A stretch of DNA of 64,000 bases from Hyphococcus sp. (GTDB lineage: Bacteria; Pseudomonadota; Alphaproteobacteria; Caulobacterales; Parvularculaceae), in the NCBI GenBank assembly GCA_021776375.1, contig JAJFGA010000001.1, forward strand, positions 1 to 64,000, written 5' to 3'. Under the pieces are notes generated by a model, which was given only the letters and a program-made list of their open reading frames with translations, ran no database searches and had not been told where the DNA came from. Position 1 is the stretch's first letter; each line of letters starts with the position of its first letter. Below are positions 46,027 to 49,543 of the stretch, one piece after another. Both the position numbers and the translations under genes were made by a program.

Positions 46027-47025
46027 TCAGCGCCTAGGATTGGTTGCGGGAACGATGATGGAAAATCCATCGAACTGATATTCAAAAGCGCCGTCTGTTT
46101 CCACATAGGCGGCGCTTTTTGAGTCTATCGTCTCGAACGCACCCTGAACACGGCTGAGATATGCGGGCTCCGCCACCGGGACATTATGCGCCGTCAGCAA
46201 ATGATCGACCTCCGGTTCAAGTGCGGCGAGCCGGTCAATCGACGCCATATAGTCGGCGACGTTTGAGCCCTTGAGGTGGGCGTAGAGCGGGGCCAGATAA
46301 AATGTGTCGCCGGTAAACAACCTTCGCCCCGCGCGGTCGAGAAGACAAATCGAATCCGGCGAATGGCCAGGCGTCACTAAGATTTCAAGCCGCCGTTCGC
46401 CAAGATCGATAATGTCGCCATCCTCGAAGAGTGTCGTTACCTGATAGGGATGGATTTTATAGGCCTCCGGATCAAACCCATCCGGGGTTTTCTTCCACAA
46501 CCAGTCGCCGGTTACATAGCGGGCGACTTTTTCAGGTCCGGCGCCTTTCGCTTGTGCGTGGGCATAGTCAACGTCAACGCCGCCAATTTCTGAAAACTCA
46601 TAATTGCCGCCAATGTGGTCGTAATGGCCGTGGGAATTTAAAACCATAACGTCGAGATTGGTGAGGCGTGTGATAACCGGGCGAAGCTTGGCAATGCCGA
46701 GCCCCGTGTCGAACAGCAACGCCCGCGTCTCGCCGACAATCAGGAACGAAATGACTTCCTCAAACTGGCCCGGCTCGTAAATCGCATAAACATCGGAAAA
46801 TACTCGGTAGACTTCAAACCACTCAAGGTCATCGGCGACGCGCTCGTAATTCGCCCATTGCGCCCGCGGAAGCTTTTCCCGCCATTTTGCAGTGTCGCCG
46901 CCGCGGCCTTCGACTTTTTGTGTATCGCTGTTGGTGCGCGTGTTCTCGTCGGCGCAGCCAAACGTCAGCACCGCCACGGCGAATAAAACCCCGGCTGCTC
47001 CTGAATTTATGTGTTTTCTCGCCAT
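46027..47025 (-). CDS. MBL-fold metallo-hydrolase, putative lipoprotein
   Basis: 332-aa beta-lactamase-fold hydrolase. The N-terminal signal ends LTFGC (cysteine 24), a lipoprotein-like but not canonical lipobox. The metal-binding set is complete: NSHGHYDH, a His in VTPGHSPDS, Asp in FTGDTFY and a C-terminal His in LTAHNVPV. Substrates of this fold range from thioesters and lactones to phosphodiesters and beta-lactams; none is indicated here. It lies 74 bp downstream of the Rac-like GTPase gene on the same strand and could be cotranscribed; both products carry export signals, which is the one visible link between them. Confidence 0.87.
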   Translation of the reverse strand: MARKHINSGAAGVLFAVAVLTFGCADENTRTNSDTQKVEGRGGDTAKWREKLPRAQWANYERVADDLEWFEVYRVFSDVYAIYEPGQFEEVISFLIVGETRALLFDTGLGIAKLRPVITRLTNLDVMVLNSHGHYDHIGGNYEFSEIGGVDVDYAHAQAKGAGPEKVARYVTGDWLWKKTPDGFDPEAYKIHPYQVTTLFEDGDIIDLGERRLEILVTPGHSPDSICLLDRAGRRLFTGDTFYLAPLYAHLKGSNVADYMASIDRLAALEPEVDHLLTAHNVPVAEPAYLSRVQGAFETIDSKSAAYVETDGAFEYQFDGFSIIVPATNPRR

Positions 47026-47099
47026 ATCAACAGTTTATCGTACCCAATGGCGTGGGGGCAAGCACGATAAGCCTTGCTCGATTGAGACGGCCTGCCGGC

Positions 47100-47798
47100 C
47101 TACTGGTCTGGCAAGGGCTGCGTCAGCGGGCGGTTTTTCAGGCGCGGCTTTTTCTTGCGCTTGAGGGGATCGATTATGTATGGCCGTCTGAGAAGGTTGG
47201 CGCCAAGCGTTCCGCGCGTAAGGCGCACGGCGTCGTCAAACATATTTTTCAGCCCTGCCTGGGTAAGCGCGGAACATTCCCGATAAACCAGCCCCAAGGA
47301 CCGGGCGCGGGCTGCGCCTTCCGAAGCGCTTTTGGCGAGTTTTGCGGCGTTGCGGTCGGCGCGCAAATCGGTTTTAAACCCGGCCAGCAAGATAGGCGCG
47401 CCCGGAACATGGTGACGAATTTCCGGTATCCATTTGCTGGAGACGTTGTCGAAGCTGGAGGGGGAGATAATCGAATAGGCGATGATGAAGACATCCGTCT
47501 GCGGATAGCTTAAAGGCCGCAGGCGATCATAGTCCTCTTGGCCTGCCGTATCGAACAACTCCAGGTTCGTCATTTTACCGTCGACGGTTGCGTTGACGCG
47601 AGTCACGTCAAAGACTGTCGGAATATACTCCGTCGGAAAGGCGTTTGTAGAATAGGAAATGATAGCGCTTGTTTTGCCGACGGCGCCATCTCCGACGACC
47701 ACCAGTTTCGTGTGTCCTGTTTTAGCCTGTGCGGAAGCGGCAAAGCCGCCCGTAAGACCGAATACGACCCCCGTTTTGAGTAGTTTGCGCCGTTGCAT
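47100..47798 (-). CDS. Rac/Rho-like small GTPase with Tat-type signal peptide
   Basis: 232 aa. After QRRKLLKTG (2-10), a hydrophobic stretch and an AQA cleavage site (about 23-25), the protein is plainly a Ras-superfamily GTPase of the Rho/Rac type: G1 GDGAVGKT (36-43), switch I EYIPTVFD (57-64) with T61, G3 DTAGQ (83-87), the Rac/Cdc42-like [17 protein letters not shown] (88-104) and G5 ECSAL (174-178). G4 is FKTD (141-144) where Rac has TKLD. The Rho insert region is about eight residues shorter than in Rac1. A polybasic KRKKKPRL (213-220) remains, but no CaaX cysteine. GGGAGG five bases before the ATG shows the signal peptide is translated. Codon use resembles the neighbours. Family assignment is secure; export and function are inferred. 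Confidence 0.9.
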
Positions 47799-48121
47799 AT
47801 GGGCCTCCCGTTAGAGTGGCGATACAACCGCCATTTCCTGAGTCATGACCAATTTTGAAGCATCATACGCGATCAAGCGGACTTTAGAAGGAAGAACTCC
47901 GCCAGCGGCGATGAATTTGAGCATGGGCTCCATTATGGGGAGCCGCCTCAAGGCGCGCCGACAAAGAGGTTCGCCGGAGCAACGCCTGGCCTAAGAATTA
48001 CGCCGAATGATGGGGATTTTCAGCAGCGCACTTGCTCGAAGGGGGCGGGCCCGCCTAATGTCATCCGCAATTTTTCTAATCAAGCGCCGGCCACGGGGCG
48101 GCATAAGGGGTACTGAGCGGC
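47799..48121. other. Divergent intergenic region, GTPase / AGCS symporter
   Basis: No gene is supported in these 323 bp. It must hold the promoters of both divergent genes. A small hairpin GGCTCC/GGAGCC (47926-47944) and a perfect palindrome GGCGGGCCCGCC (48044-48055) are visible. No clear -35/-10 pair was found. Confidence 0.5.
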
Positions 48122-49543
48122 ATGGAAAGTTTCTACACCGGCGTTGATAATGTTAGCGGCTTCATCTGGGGCGGCACATGGAATGGAGCCGTTATATTGC
48201 CGCTCGCGCCCATGGTGGTTGTGCTCTTGGGCACTGGGCTGTTCTTTATGATCCGGCTTAAAGGTTTGCCGATAAGGCGGTTGATCCCTGCCTTCGTCAA
48301 CCTGTTTACCGGCAGCCGCAAGGCAAGTACTGACCCAGACGCCAGCGGCGAGATCACGCCGTGGAACGCGCTTTCAACGGCGCTGTCCGGCCAGGTCGGC
48401 ACCGGCAATCTCGCTGGCGTTGCGACCGCGATCACGCTTGGCGGGCCCGGTGCGATTTTCTGGATGTGGGTGACGGCGCTGTTCGGCATGGCGGCGTCAT
48501 TTGCCGAATCGAGCCTTGCGGTGAAGTATCGCGAAACCCATCCCGACGGCCACGTTCATGGCGGGCCGATGTTCTACATCAAGAACGGCCTCGGCAAGAA
48601 GTGGGGGTGGCTTGCGGTCTTCTTTGCGCTTGGAACGATTTTTTCCGCCATCGTCACCGGCAATATGACGCAAGCCAATTCCATCGCAACGGCTGCGGAG
48701 GCGGCCGCGGGTATCCCGACCTGGATTTCCGGCGCCGTCATCGCGGTTCTGGCTTTCATCGTCATCATTGGCGGCATCAAATCCATCGGCTCCGTTGCCG
48801 GTAAAGTCGTGCCGGCGATGGCGCTCGGTTATATTGTTGTTGGCGTCATTATGCTGATCATTAACGCTGAGCATGTGCCGGCGGCGTTCATGGAGATATT
48901 CACTTACGCATTTGGTCTCGAACAGGCCGGTGGCGGCGTTGCCGGTTTTGCGGTGTTGCAGGCGGTGCGGTTTGGCGTTGCGCGCGGGCTATTTTCAAAT
49001 GAAGCCGGGCAAGGCTCAACGGCGATTGCCCATGCGGCGGCGAAAACCGACGATCCGGTGCGCCAGGGTGAGATCGCCATGCTCGGTTCATTCATCGATA
49101 CGATTGTGATTTGCACCATGACGGCGCTGGTTATTTTGTCGGTGAAGGGGCAGTTCCCAGGTGTTGACGGCGCTGTAGTGGATTATGCTTGGCAATCCAC
49201 CTTGCAAGGGGCGCAGGTGACAACGGCCGTGTTCAGCCAGGGCATGCCGTTTGGCGGTATTTTCATTGCGGTCGCACTCGCGCTGTTTGCATTCACGACC
49301 ATTCTTGGCTGGTCCTATTACATGGAGCAGGCGGCGACCTATCTGTTTGGCGACTGGATCGCCAAACCCATGCGCTTTATTTGGGTTAGCATGGTGTTTA
49401 TCGGCGCGCTGCAGCAAATCGATTTTATCTGGAAGTTTGGCGATCTCGCTAACGCTTCCATGGCCTTCCCCAACCTGATTGCGATCTTGCTGTTGAGCCC
49501 CGTCGTGGTGGCGATGGCGCGTGAGAAGGGGCGTCTAAAATAA
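48122..49543 (+). CDS. Alanine/glycine:cation symporter (AGCS family)
   Basis: Sodium-coupled amino-acid importer in the inner membrane, 473 aa with about ten or eleven transmembrane helices. Signatures are GQVGTGNLAGVATAITLGGPGAIFWM split by the usual pattern, FAESSLAVKYRE, and GLFSNEAGQGSTAIAHAAAKT, which are diagnostic. The ATG lies at the end of a GC-rich leader with GGGGTACTGAG upstream. Divergent from the Rac-like GTPase across 323 bp. Alanine or glycine uptake is the family function. Confidence 0.95.
   Translation: MESFYTGVDNVSGFIWGGTWNGAVILPLAPMVVVLLGTGLFFMIRLKGLPIRRLIPAFVNLFTGSRKASTDPDASGEITPWNALSTALSGQVGTGNLAGVATAITLGGPGAIFWMWVTALFGMAASFAESSLAVKYRETHPDGHVHGGPMFYIKNGLGKKWGWLAVFFALGTIFSAIVTGNMTQANSIATAAEAAAGIPTWISGAVIAVLAFIVIIGGIKSIGSVAGKVVPAMALGYIVVGVIMLIINAEHVPAAFMEIFTYAFGLEQAGGGVAGFAVLQAVRFGVARGLFSNEAGQGSTAIAHAAAKTDDPVRQGEIAMLGSFIDTIVICTMTALVILSVKGQFPGVDGAVVDYAWQSTLQGAQVTTAVFSQGMPFGGIFIAVALALFAFTTILGWSYYMEQAATYLFGDWIAKPMRFIWVSMVFIGALQQIDFIWKFGDLANASMAFPNLIAILLLSPVVVAMAREKGRLK

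Follow-up and report, generated by a model that had tools for sequence, protein, structure and literature searches.

Rho GTPases are regarded as distinctive of eukaryotes, and small GTPases are seen as inherently cytoplasmic proteins that depend on the GTP found there. In Rac, switch II is the usual partner-binding face. The known cargo of the twin-arginine (Tat) export route consists mostly of redox enzymes and hydrolases, and to our knowledge a small GTPase is not among its familiar cargo. The prokaryotic small GTPases include the MglA and Rup families (PMC4316618), and the passages on Rho in that paper name no Rho-type bacterial protein. For Tat signals, the relevant passages of PMC13243786 give an extended consensus S-R-R-x-F-L-K and describe a basic residue as frequent in the c-region.

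We analysed a window of 64,000 nucleotides from Hyphococcus sp. (contig JAJFGA010000001.1, positions 1 to 64,000). The host genome, a 3.1 Mb assembly in 92 contigs that is 84.4% complete, belongs to the same order as the Robiginitomaculum and Maricaulis genomes that carry related genes. An open reading frame on the minus strand at 47100-47798 starts with ATG and encodes 232 amino acids. Its features are:

47103..47798, minus strand: coding sequence of the predicted exported Rac-like GTPase, 232 amino acids (stop codon at 47100-47102)
47804..47809, minus strand: Shine-Dalgarno sequence GGGAGG, five bases 5' of the ATG, read from the sequence
47724..47798, minus strand: predicted twin-arginine signal, residues 1-25 (QRRKLL ... 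AQA; the cleavage site is our own reading)
47211..47717, minus strand: Rac-type G domain, residues 28-196, from the Pfam Ras match (31-192), the PDB matches to Rac3/Rac1 and the AlphaFold elements
47103..47210, minus strand: C-terminal tail, residues 197-232, basic and proline-rich, without CAAX and mostly with pLDDT <50, from sequence and AlphaFold

The preliminary description of this gene is right in nearly every detail. The GGGAGG that it placed five bases before the ATG is found exactly there, the protein motifs that it quoted are all present in the translation, and its figure of roughly 80 of about 115 positions identical to human Rac1 comes to 80/114 over window residues 31-144. The N-terminus, which it read as an arginine-pair signal with a hydrophobic stretch and AQA, fits ZRRx(phi)(phi), an h-region and an AxA site. 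Twelve further loci share this layout, which is therefore not a matter of chance, and GGAG is seen by eye upstream of the start in 12/13 loci.

The Rac likeness also holds in profile and PDB searches. Pfam Ras matches residues 31-192 (E = 5e-44), and the top PDB chains are human Rac3/Rac1 (E 8e-64 to 5e-63), followed by Cdc42 (about 1e-58). Over 169-170 aligned residues the window protein is 61% identical to Rac1, 60% to Cdc42, 51% to a barley ROP and 49% to RhoA; an archaeal control (L029) is 36% identical to Rac1. The Rho-type G1-G5 sequence is present in the G domain, and AlphaFold, given 13 sequences, yields the strand and helix order of a G domain over residues 28-195 (E28-35 to H183-195). 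The model of the window protein has a mean pLDDT of 71.6 and a pTM of 0.69, with block means of 62-92 across residues 31-200 and values below 50 for residues 1-25 and most of 203-232. On sequence and profile grounds the window protein is assigned to the Rho family, as a GTPase of the Rac type.

We scanned 84,980 species genomes by pattern and identified 133 relatives, of which the best 80 were kept. Among these best 80 of 133 are six Robiginitomaculum and five Maricaulis loci with the same layout, two Zetaproteobacterial loci, one 'Deltaproteobacteria' record, one Verrucomicrobiaceae record and 65 archaeal small GTPases with weaker E-values; the bacterial Rac-type records among them number 13 (11 with the signal, 2 without). 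The 11 signal-bearing relatives (L015-L019, L021, L022, L024-L026 and L028, the same records as L004-L013 and L117) lie on named bacterial contigs of 13-857 kb. Together with the window copy and L014 they bring the signal-bearing loci to 13, of which 12 are intact; in the thirteenth, L025 (5692-6702, Maricaulis sp. HCUG1439-2), a single in-frame TAG breaks the reading frame. L014 (1501-2157), from another family of the order, is a divergent member with the motifs GDPLVGKT and DTSGDEG; it keeps the arginine-pair signal, and its switch I and parts of its G motifs drift.

The gene is rare. By whole-genome search it is present in 12/398 genomes of the order and, in a sample of the class at E 1e-15, in 1/385, the window's own genome being counted in both. 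Eleven of the 137 genomes in the family of genome G356 carry it, as do 6/18 in the genus of G356 (6/11 among good assemblies there). Querying a phylum sample with L023 at E 1e-10 returned 3/398 genomes, namely that of the window and those of a pair of congeneric Zetaproteobacteria. The same query at E 0.001 matched 30/78 Zetaproteobacterial genomes. Rac-type proteins come from just two of these, one being the query and the other 71% identical to it; the best matches of the other 28 were at E 3e-7 or worse. On viral contigs 30 stretches fit the pattern and none is a relative; no relative was found on plasmids or in phages, and Rfam had no match in 46500-48500. Apart from the GTPase gene and its antisense frame, no conserved operon partner was seen in 15 loci, since neighbouring frames are common to small subsets only (L015/L017/L028, L021/L026 and L024/L025, and one family shared by L018 and L025 that lies away from the GTPase gene).

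The two Zetaproteobacterial proteins, L023:5938-6552 and L020:1016-1627, are Rac-like (68-71% identical to human Rac1) and have a basic N-terminal extension, no signal and no C-terminal tail; the window protein is 58% identical to L023. By eye, the 144 kb contig of L023 also holds panB/panC-like and htpG-like reading frames, and in L020 the Rac-like gene is closely preceded, on its own strand, by a gene of the phage-lysozyme family (Pfam PF00959, 379-888). The 'Deltaproteobacteria' MAG sequence (L027:1-798) is Rho-like, and its last residues, CCAIQ, resemble a prenylation site; in the Verrucomicrobiaceae MAG the Rho-like sequence (L067:5935-6682) has a frame broken perhaps by introns. Both are possibly eukaryotic contamination.

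In the window the GTPase gene lies in a one-gene insertion about 950 bases long, as follows from empty sites in same-genus genomes and an exact 9-base repeat at the insert bounds:

47082..48030, no strand: one-gene insertion comprising the gene and about 230 bases upstream, missing in same-genus genomes
47073..47081, plus strand: left copy of the 9-base direct repeat CTTGCTCGA, probable target-site duplication
48031..48039, plus strand: right copy of the 9-base direct repeat CTTGCTCGA, probable target-site duplication

All 27 other genomes of the genus contain matches to the 6.1 kb surrounding the gene, and none of the 27 carries the GTPase gene. In three of them (G019, G026 and G006) the metallo-beta-lactamase and sodium:alanine symporter genes, which in the window stand on either side of the GTPase gene, adjoin and the GTPase site is empty, with six unaligned bases in G026 in place of the window's 964. 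A fourth same-genus locus (L122), with both flanks and 553 unaligned bases between them, was left out of the comparison. Counted by eye, the site with one repeat copy is 27 bases, the same length as the empty G026 site; a shared word of at least 9 bases turned up by chance in 25 of 5000 random placements with boxes of the same size. The longest exact inverted match between the insert ends is 6 bases, and no longer terminal inverted repeats were found. For the upstream part of the inserted unit, nothing significant was matched across 12 loci (best E 0.29). Downstream of the GTPase gene, 46027-47025 encodes a metallo-beta-lactamase-fold protein with a lipoprotein-like N-terminus; since the insertion the two genes have run in the same direction across a 74-base gap. 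As a part of the inserted unit the metallo-beta-lactamase-fold gene was ruled out, since the empty-site genomes place it in the ancestral site.

Trees were built without L025 (stop codon), L067 (frame broken) and 43 of the 65 archaeal loci, and contain no Ras, MglA or Rup rows. The first tree has 45 rows (12 family, 2 Zetaproteobacterial, 8 eukaryotic, 22 archaeal and 1 'delta'); in the second, on which the AU test was run, L014, Sec4 and L072 were dropped as long branches. The signal-bearing family is one clade (98/92 in the first tree, 99/92 in the second), which the two Zetaproteobacterial proteins join (94/78 and 92/83), and within it six Robiginitomaculum proteins and the window protein form a group of 7 rows (95/90 and 93/90). 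The bacterial rows, together with Rac, Cdc42, RhoA, ROP and the 'delta' row, are split from the archaeal rows and Sec4 at 100/100 by a long branch, and the 100/100 split from the archaeal rows (21-22) holds in both trees. The best trees place the bacterial clade, weakly supported, amid Rac, Cdc42, RhoA and ROP. The AU test rejects neither the seven eukaryotic Rho rows as one clade beside the bacteria (p = 0.188) nor the bacteria beside animal Rac (p = 0.511).

Taken together, tree, identity and rarity in bacteria favour passage of a Rac-type gene from a eukaryote into bacteria. A reversed relationship, in which the eukaryotic Rho family is sister to the bacterial proteins or descends from them, draws on the AU result of p = 0.188 and is nonetheless quite improbable: L020 shares 71% identity with human Rac1, more than barley RACB does (65%), the best trees spread Rac, Cdc42, RhoA and ROP over several branches around the bacteria, if with weak support, and the relatives include just the 13 bacterial records among the best 80 of 133 from 84,980 species genomes. 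That the gene is a eukaryotic contaminant or a misassembly might be thought from the rarity of the family, its mostly MAG sources and the two doubtful records L027 and L067; the flanks contradict it (6.1 kb matched in 27/27 same-genus genomes), as do the GC content of the gene (0.566 vs 0.572 for the window), the arginine-pair signal, the Shine-Dalgarno sequence and the 11 signal-bearing relatives on bacterial contigs (13-857 kb) plus L014, and the idea has practically no chance of being right. Membership in MglA or Rup, both families of prokaryotic small GTPases, would suit the bacterial host and is just as hard to credit, given 61% identity to Rac1 against 36% for the archaeal control, no Roadblock match in the own genome, and a tree, if one without MglA and Rup rows, that places the family in Rho.

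The preliminary description had suggested transfer from a eukaryote followed by capture into an export route. For the family the eukaryotic origin is supported, in that the phylogeny falls in the Rho family at 100/100 against the archaeal rows, with the AU test not rejecting the eukaryotic-clade topology (p = 0.188) and with MglA and Rup rows absent from the tree. A direct transfer into this genome seems unlikely: the window gene, as a one-gene insertion that groups among Robiginitomaculum copies, was probably received from bacteria and not directly from a eukaryote. For the capture, the sequence part agrees (the arginine pair in 13/13 loci, TAT_signal matches in 6/9 members and TatC in the genome), and the localisation part is inferred.

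The signals are Tat-like throughout the family. All 13 loci, the broken L025 included, fit M-x(0-4)-Z-R-R-x-phi-phi, and by eye 7/13 have RRxFLK or RRxLLK. The h-regions are short and only weakly hydrophobic, with 1.24-1.85 as the best mean over 12 residues in the 13 loci, and are followed, as judged by eye, by AxA-like sites; before AQA, the c-region of the window protein lacks basic residues. Of the 9 members examined, 6 match Pfam TAT_signal (E up to 10; best 3.8e-4), the isolated N-terminus of L015 scores above the cut-off of that model, and two NCBIfam TAT models match one member each (E 0.066 and 0.11). Neither Pfam TAT_signal nor the NCBIfam TAT models match the window protein. TatC is encoded in the host genome (E 7.5e-66). 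From these signal features, export of the family by Tat is likely.

For translation to start after the signal, the window gene offers, among in-frame ATG, GTG and TTG codons before the P-loop, only the GTG of codon 33, which falls within the first strand. Other copies differ. In L015, L018 and L019 (Robiginitomaculum) an ATG at codon 11 or 13 lies inside the signal, and the Maricaulis copies L021, L022, L024 and L026, as well as the broken L025, have a Met/ATG shortly before the G domain; with these internal starts, unsignalled or shorter forms are possible in such copies. One pre-domain Met, in AGMQNIKCV, resembles the Rac1 start MQAIKCV, and the Met in the Maricaulis copies looks like a relic of the original Rac start; the signal would then have been added in front of a complete Rac frame. 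No clear Shine-Dalgarno sequence precedes it. The domains of the 12 intact members contain one cysteine in 6/12, two in 3 and three or four in 3, as compared with 5 in Rac1/Cdc42/RhoA, 4-5 in the two Zetaproteobacterial proteins and 3-4 in plant ROPs; the loss of cysteines speaks weakly for export, since the plant ROPs also have only 3-4.

We compared the domain over the 12 intact members, with positions in Rac1 numbering. Lys16, Thr17, Asp57, Gly60, Lys116, Asp118, Ser158 and Ala159 are kept in 12/12 and Thr35 in 11/12; the nucleotide-binding residues are intact in the family. Gln61, which the window protein has, is kept in 6/12 and was lost at least twice on the tree. The first G4 residue, Thr115 in Rac1, is hydrophobic in 12/12 (Phe/Tyr/Leu/Met), with Thr and Cys in the Zetaproteobacteria; a literature search on Rac1 Thr115 gave no paper that names it. 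The Rho-insert stretch has 29-32 residues, 6-9 fewer than that of Rac1, as compared with 34-38 in 7 eukaryotic rows and 38 in the Zetaproteobacteria. A CAAX prenylation site is absent in 12/12, with a basic, proline-rich tail in its place. This absence is expected in a bacterium, and the domain is therefore a Rac-derived one and not a canonical Rac.

Measured against Rac1, the family is 92% identical over switch II (57-76) and 80% over switch I (26-45), and falls to 53% for 77-111 and 30% for 138-154; for Cdc42, RhoA and three ROPs the corresponding values are 87%, 67%, 60% and 45%. By this alignment the gradient is partly general to Rho proteins but appears steeper in the bacterial family, because the switches are nearer Rac1 than those of the eukaryotic paralogues and the remainder is further away. 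A scan of 121 windows of 13 residues, made on 9 of the 12 rows without the G-motif columns, ranked residues 64-76 first for conservation, level with 63-75 (0.953 as against a column mean of 0.587). Over 57-76 the family, at 0.86 (12 rows; 0.90 with 9 rows), is conserved no more strongly than six eukaryotic Rho rows (0.87), and Tyr64, Leu67 and Leu70 of switch II are kept in 12/12. In switch I the window protein lost Asn39 and Tyr40, L019 also lost Tyr40, and L014 lost part of the switch. The domain dN/dS is 0.09-0.32 (8 pairs), and the Rac-derived domain is under purifying selection.

We propose, with a probability of about 0.6, that a Rac domain of eukaryotic origin is exported folded by Tat and serves as a binding module that does not cycle. 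A Rac-type GTPase gene would have moved from a eukaryote into bacteria, and a twin-arginine signal, whose architecture is seen in the present copies, would have been joined to the Rac domain in an ancestor of the Robiginitomaculum and Maricaulis copies; later the gene moved into the genome of the window as the one-gene insertion that the empty sites reveal. The protein would fold in the cytoplasm with guanine nucleotide bound and, because Tat exports folded, cofactor-loaded proteins, would leave with its nucleotide for the periplasmic side, where it may be released or held by its basic tail. Reloading would be impossible outside the cytoplasm, and the nucleotide may be kept as a structural part. 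The want of a GTP pool there fits the freedom at Gln61 and the change in G4, and the Gln61 variation, the hydrophobic G4 residue, the shortened insert and the missing CAAX fit a binding module better than a cycling switch. Provided that the protein is exported, such a non-cycling module is fairly likely. The conserved switch II face would bind a partner, and a partner is likely because this most conserved face is the one by which Rac usually binds partners; bacterial proteins and protist Rac machinery were both considered, a eukaryotic partner being doubtful. A search for Roadblock/MglB in the own genome (84% complete) gave no match, and the control matched in 3/14.

The nearest competitor to this scheme keeps the Tat export and makes the protein a secreted Rac mimic that engages the Rac partners of protist grazers or hosts through switches I and II. 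It would account for switches closer to Rac1 (92% and 80%) than those of the eukaryotic paralogues (87% and 67%), with further drift over 77-111 (53 vs 60%) and 138-154 (30 vs 45%), and for the constancy of Tyr64, Leu67 and Leu70 (12/12); RhoGAP is found in 0/15 carrier genomes, a nearly uninformative result as the control matched nowhere. Yet Tyr40 is lost in the window protein and in L019, as is part of switch I in L014, the conserved switch II may merely report structure or a bacterial partner, and the few neighbours looked at are neither effector nor secretion genes, which leaves mimicry rather unlikely. Less probable still is an uncleaved N-terminal membrane anchor that replaces the prenyl tail and lets the GTPase act at the inner membrane. 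Eukaryotic Rac requires a lipid anchor, yet CAAX is absent in 12/12, and a hydrophobic stretch is present; however, the arginine pair ahead of that stretch predicts a domain on the periplasmic side and would be needless for a plain anchor, although it is kept in 13/13, and the h-regions are short and weak (1.24-1.85) with AxA-like sites.

In the literature searched, which left subscription papers mostly uncovered, we found no report of a bacterial Rho-type GTPase with an export signal. The domain itself, a Rho GTPase, is known; the export architecture and the bacterial domestication are new. A Rac domain under purifying selection behind a Tat signal would mean that a GTPase is used outside the cytoplasm and, if the proposed scheme is true, would show clearly that bacteria have domesticated a signalling gene from a eukaryote. 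Should the mimic reading hold against the odds, the family would be one of exported small GTPases, nucleotide-loaded, that bind protist Rac partners.

Compared with known Tat substrates, the family shares ZRRx(phi)(phi), a short h-region, AxA and a host genome that encodes TatC, and differs in having a small GTPase as cargo. From the MglA and Rup families, as far as gene content goes, it differs in having no MglB/Roadblock partner in its own genome. The Zetaproteobacterial proteins L020 and L023 fall in the same bacterial clade in the best trees, but have no signal, a full-length insert stretch, Thr/Cys at position 115 and 4-5 cysteines. With the Rac/Cdc42 branch the window protein has in common the G1-G5 motifs, switch II, ECSALTQ at G5 and 61% identity to human Rac1, whereas the bacterial family departs from that branch in its Tat-type signal, the absence of CAAX, a shortened Rho-insert stretch, a hydrophobic first G4 residue and the loss of Gln61 in 6/12 members.
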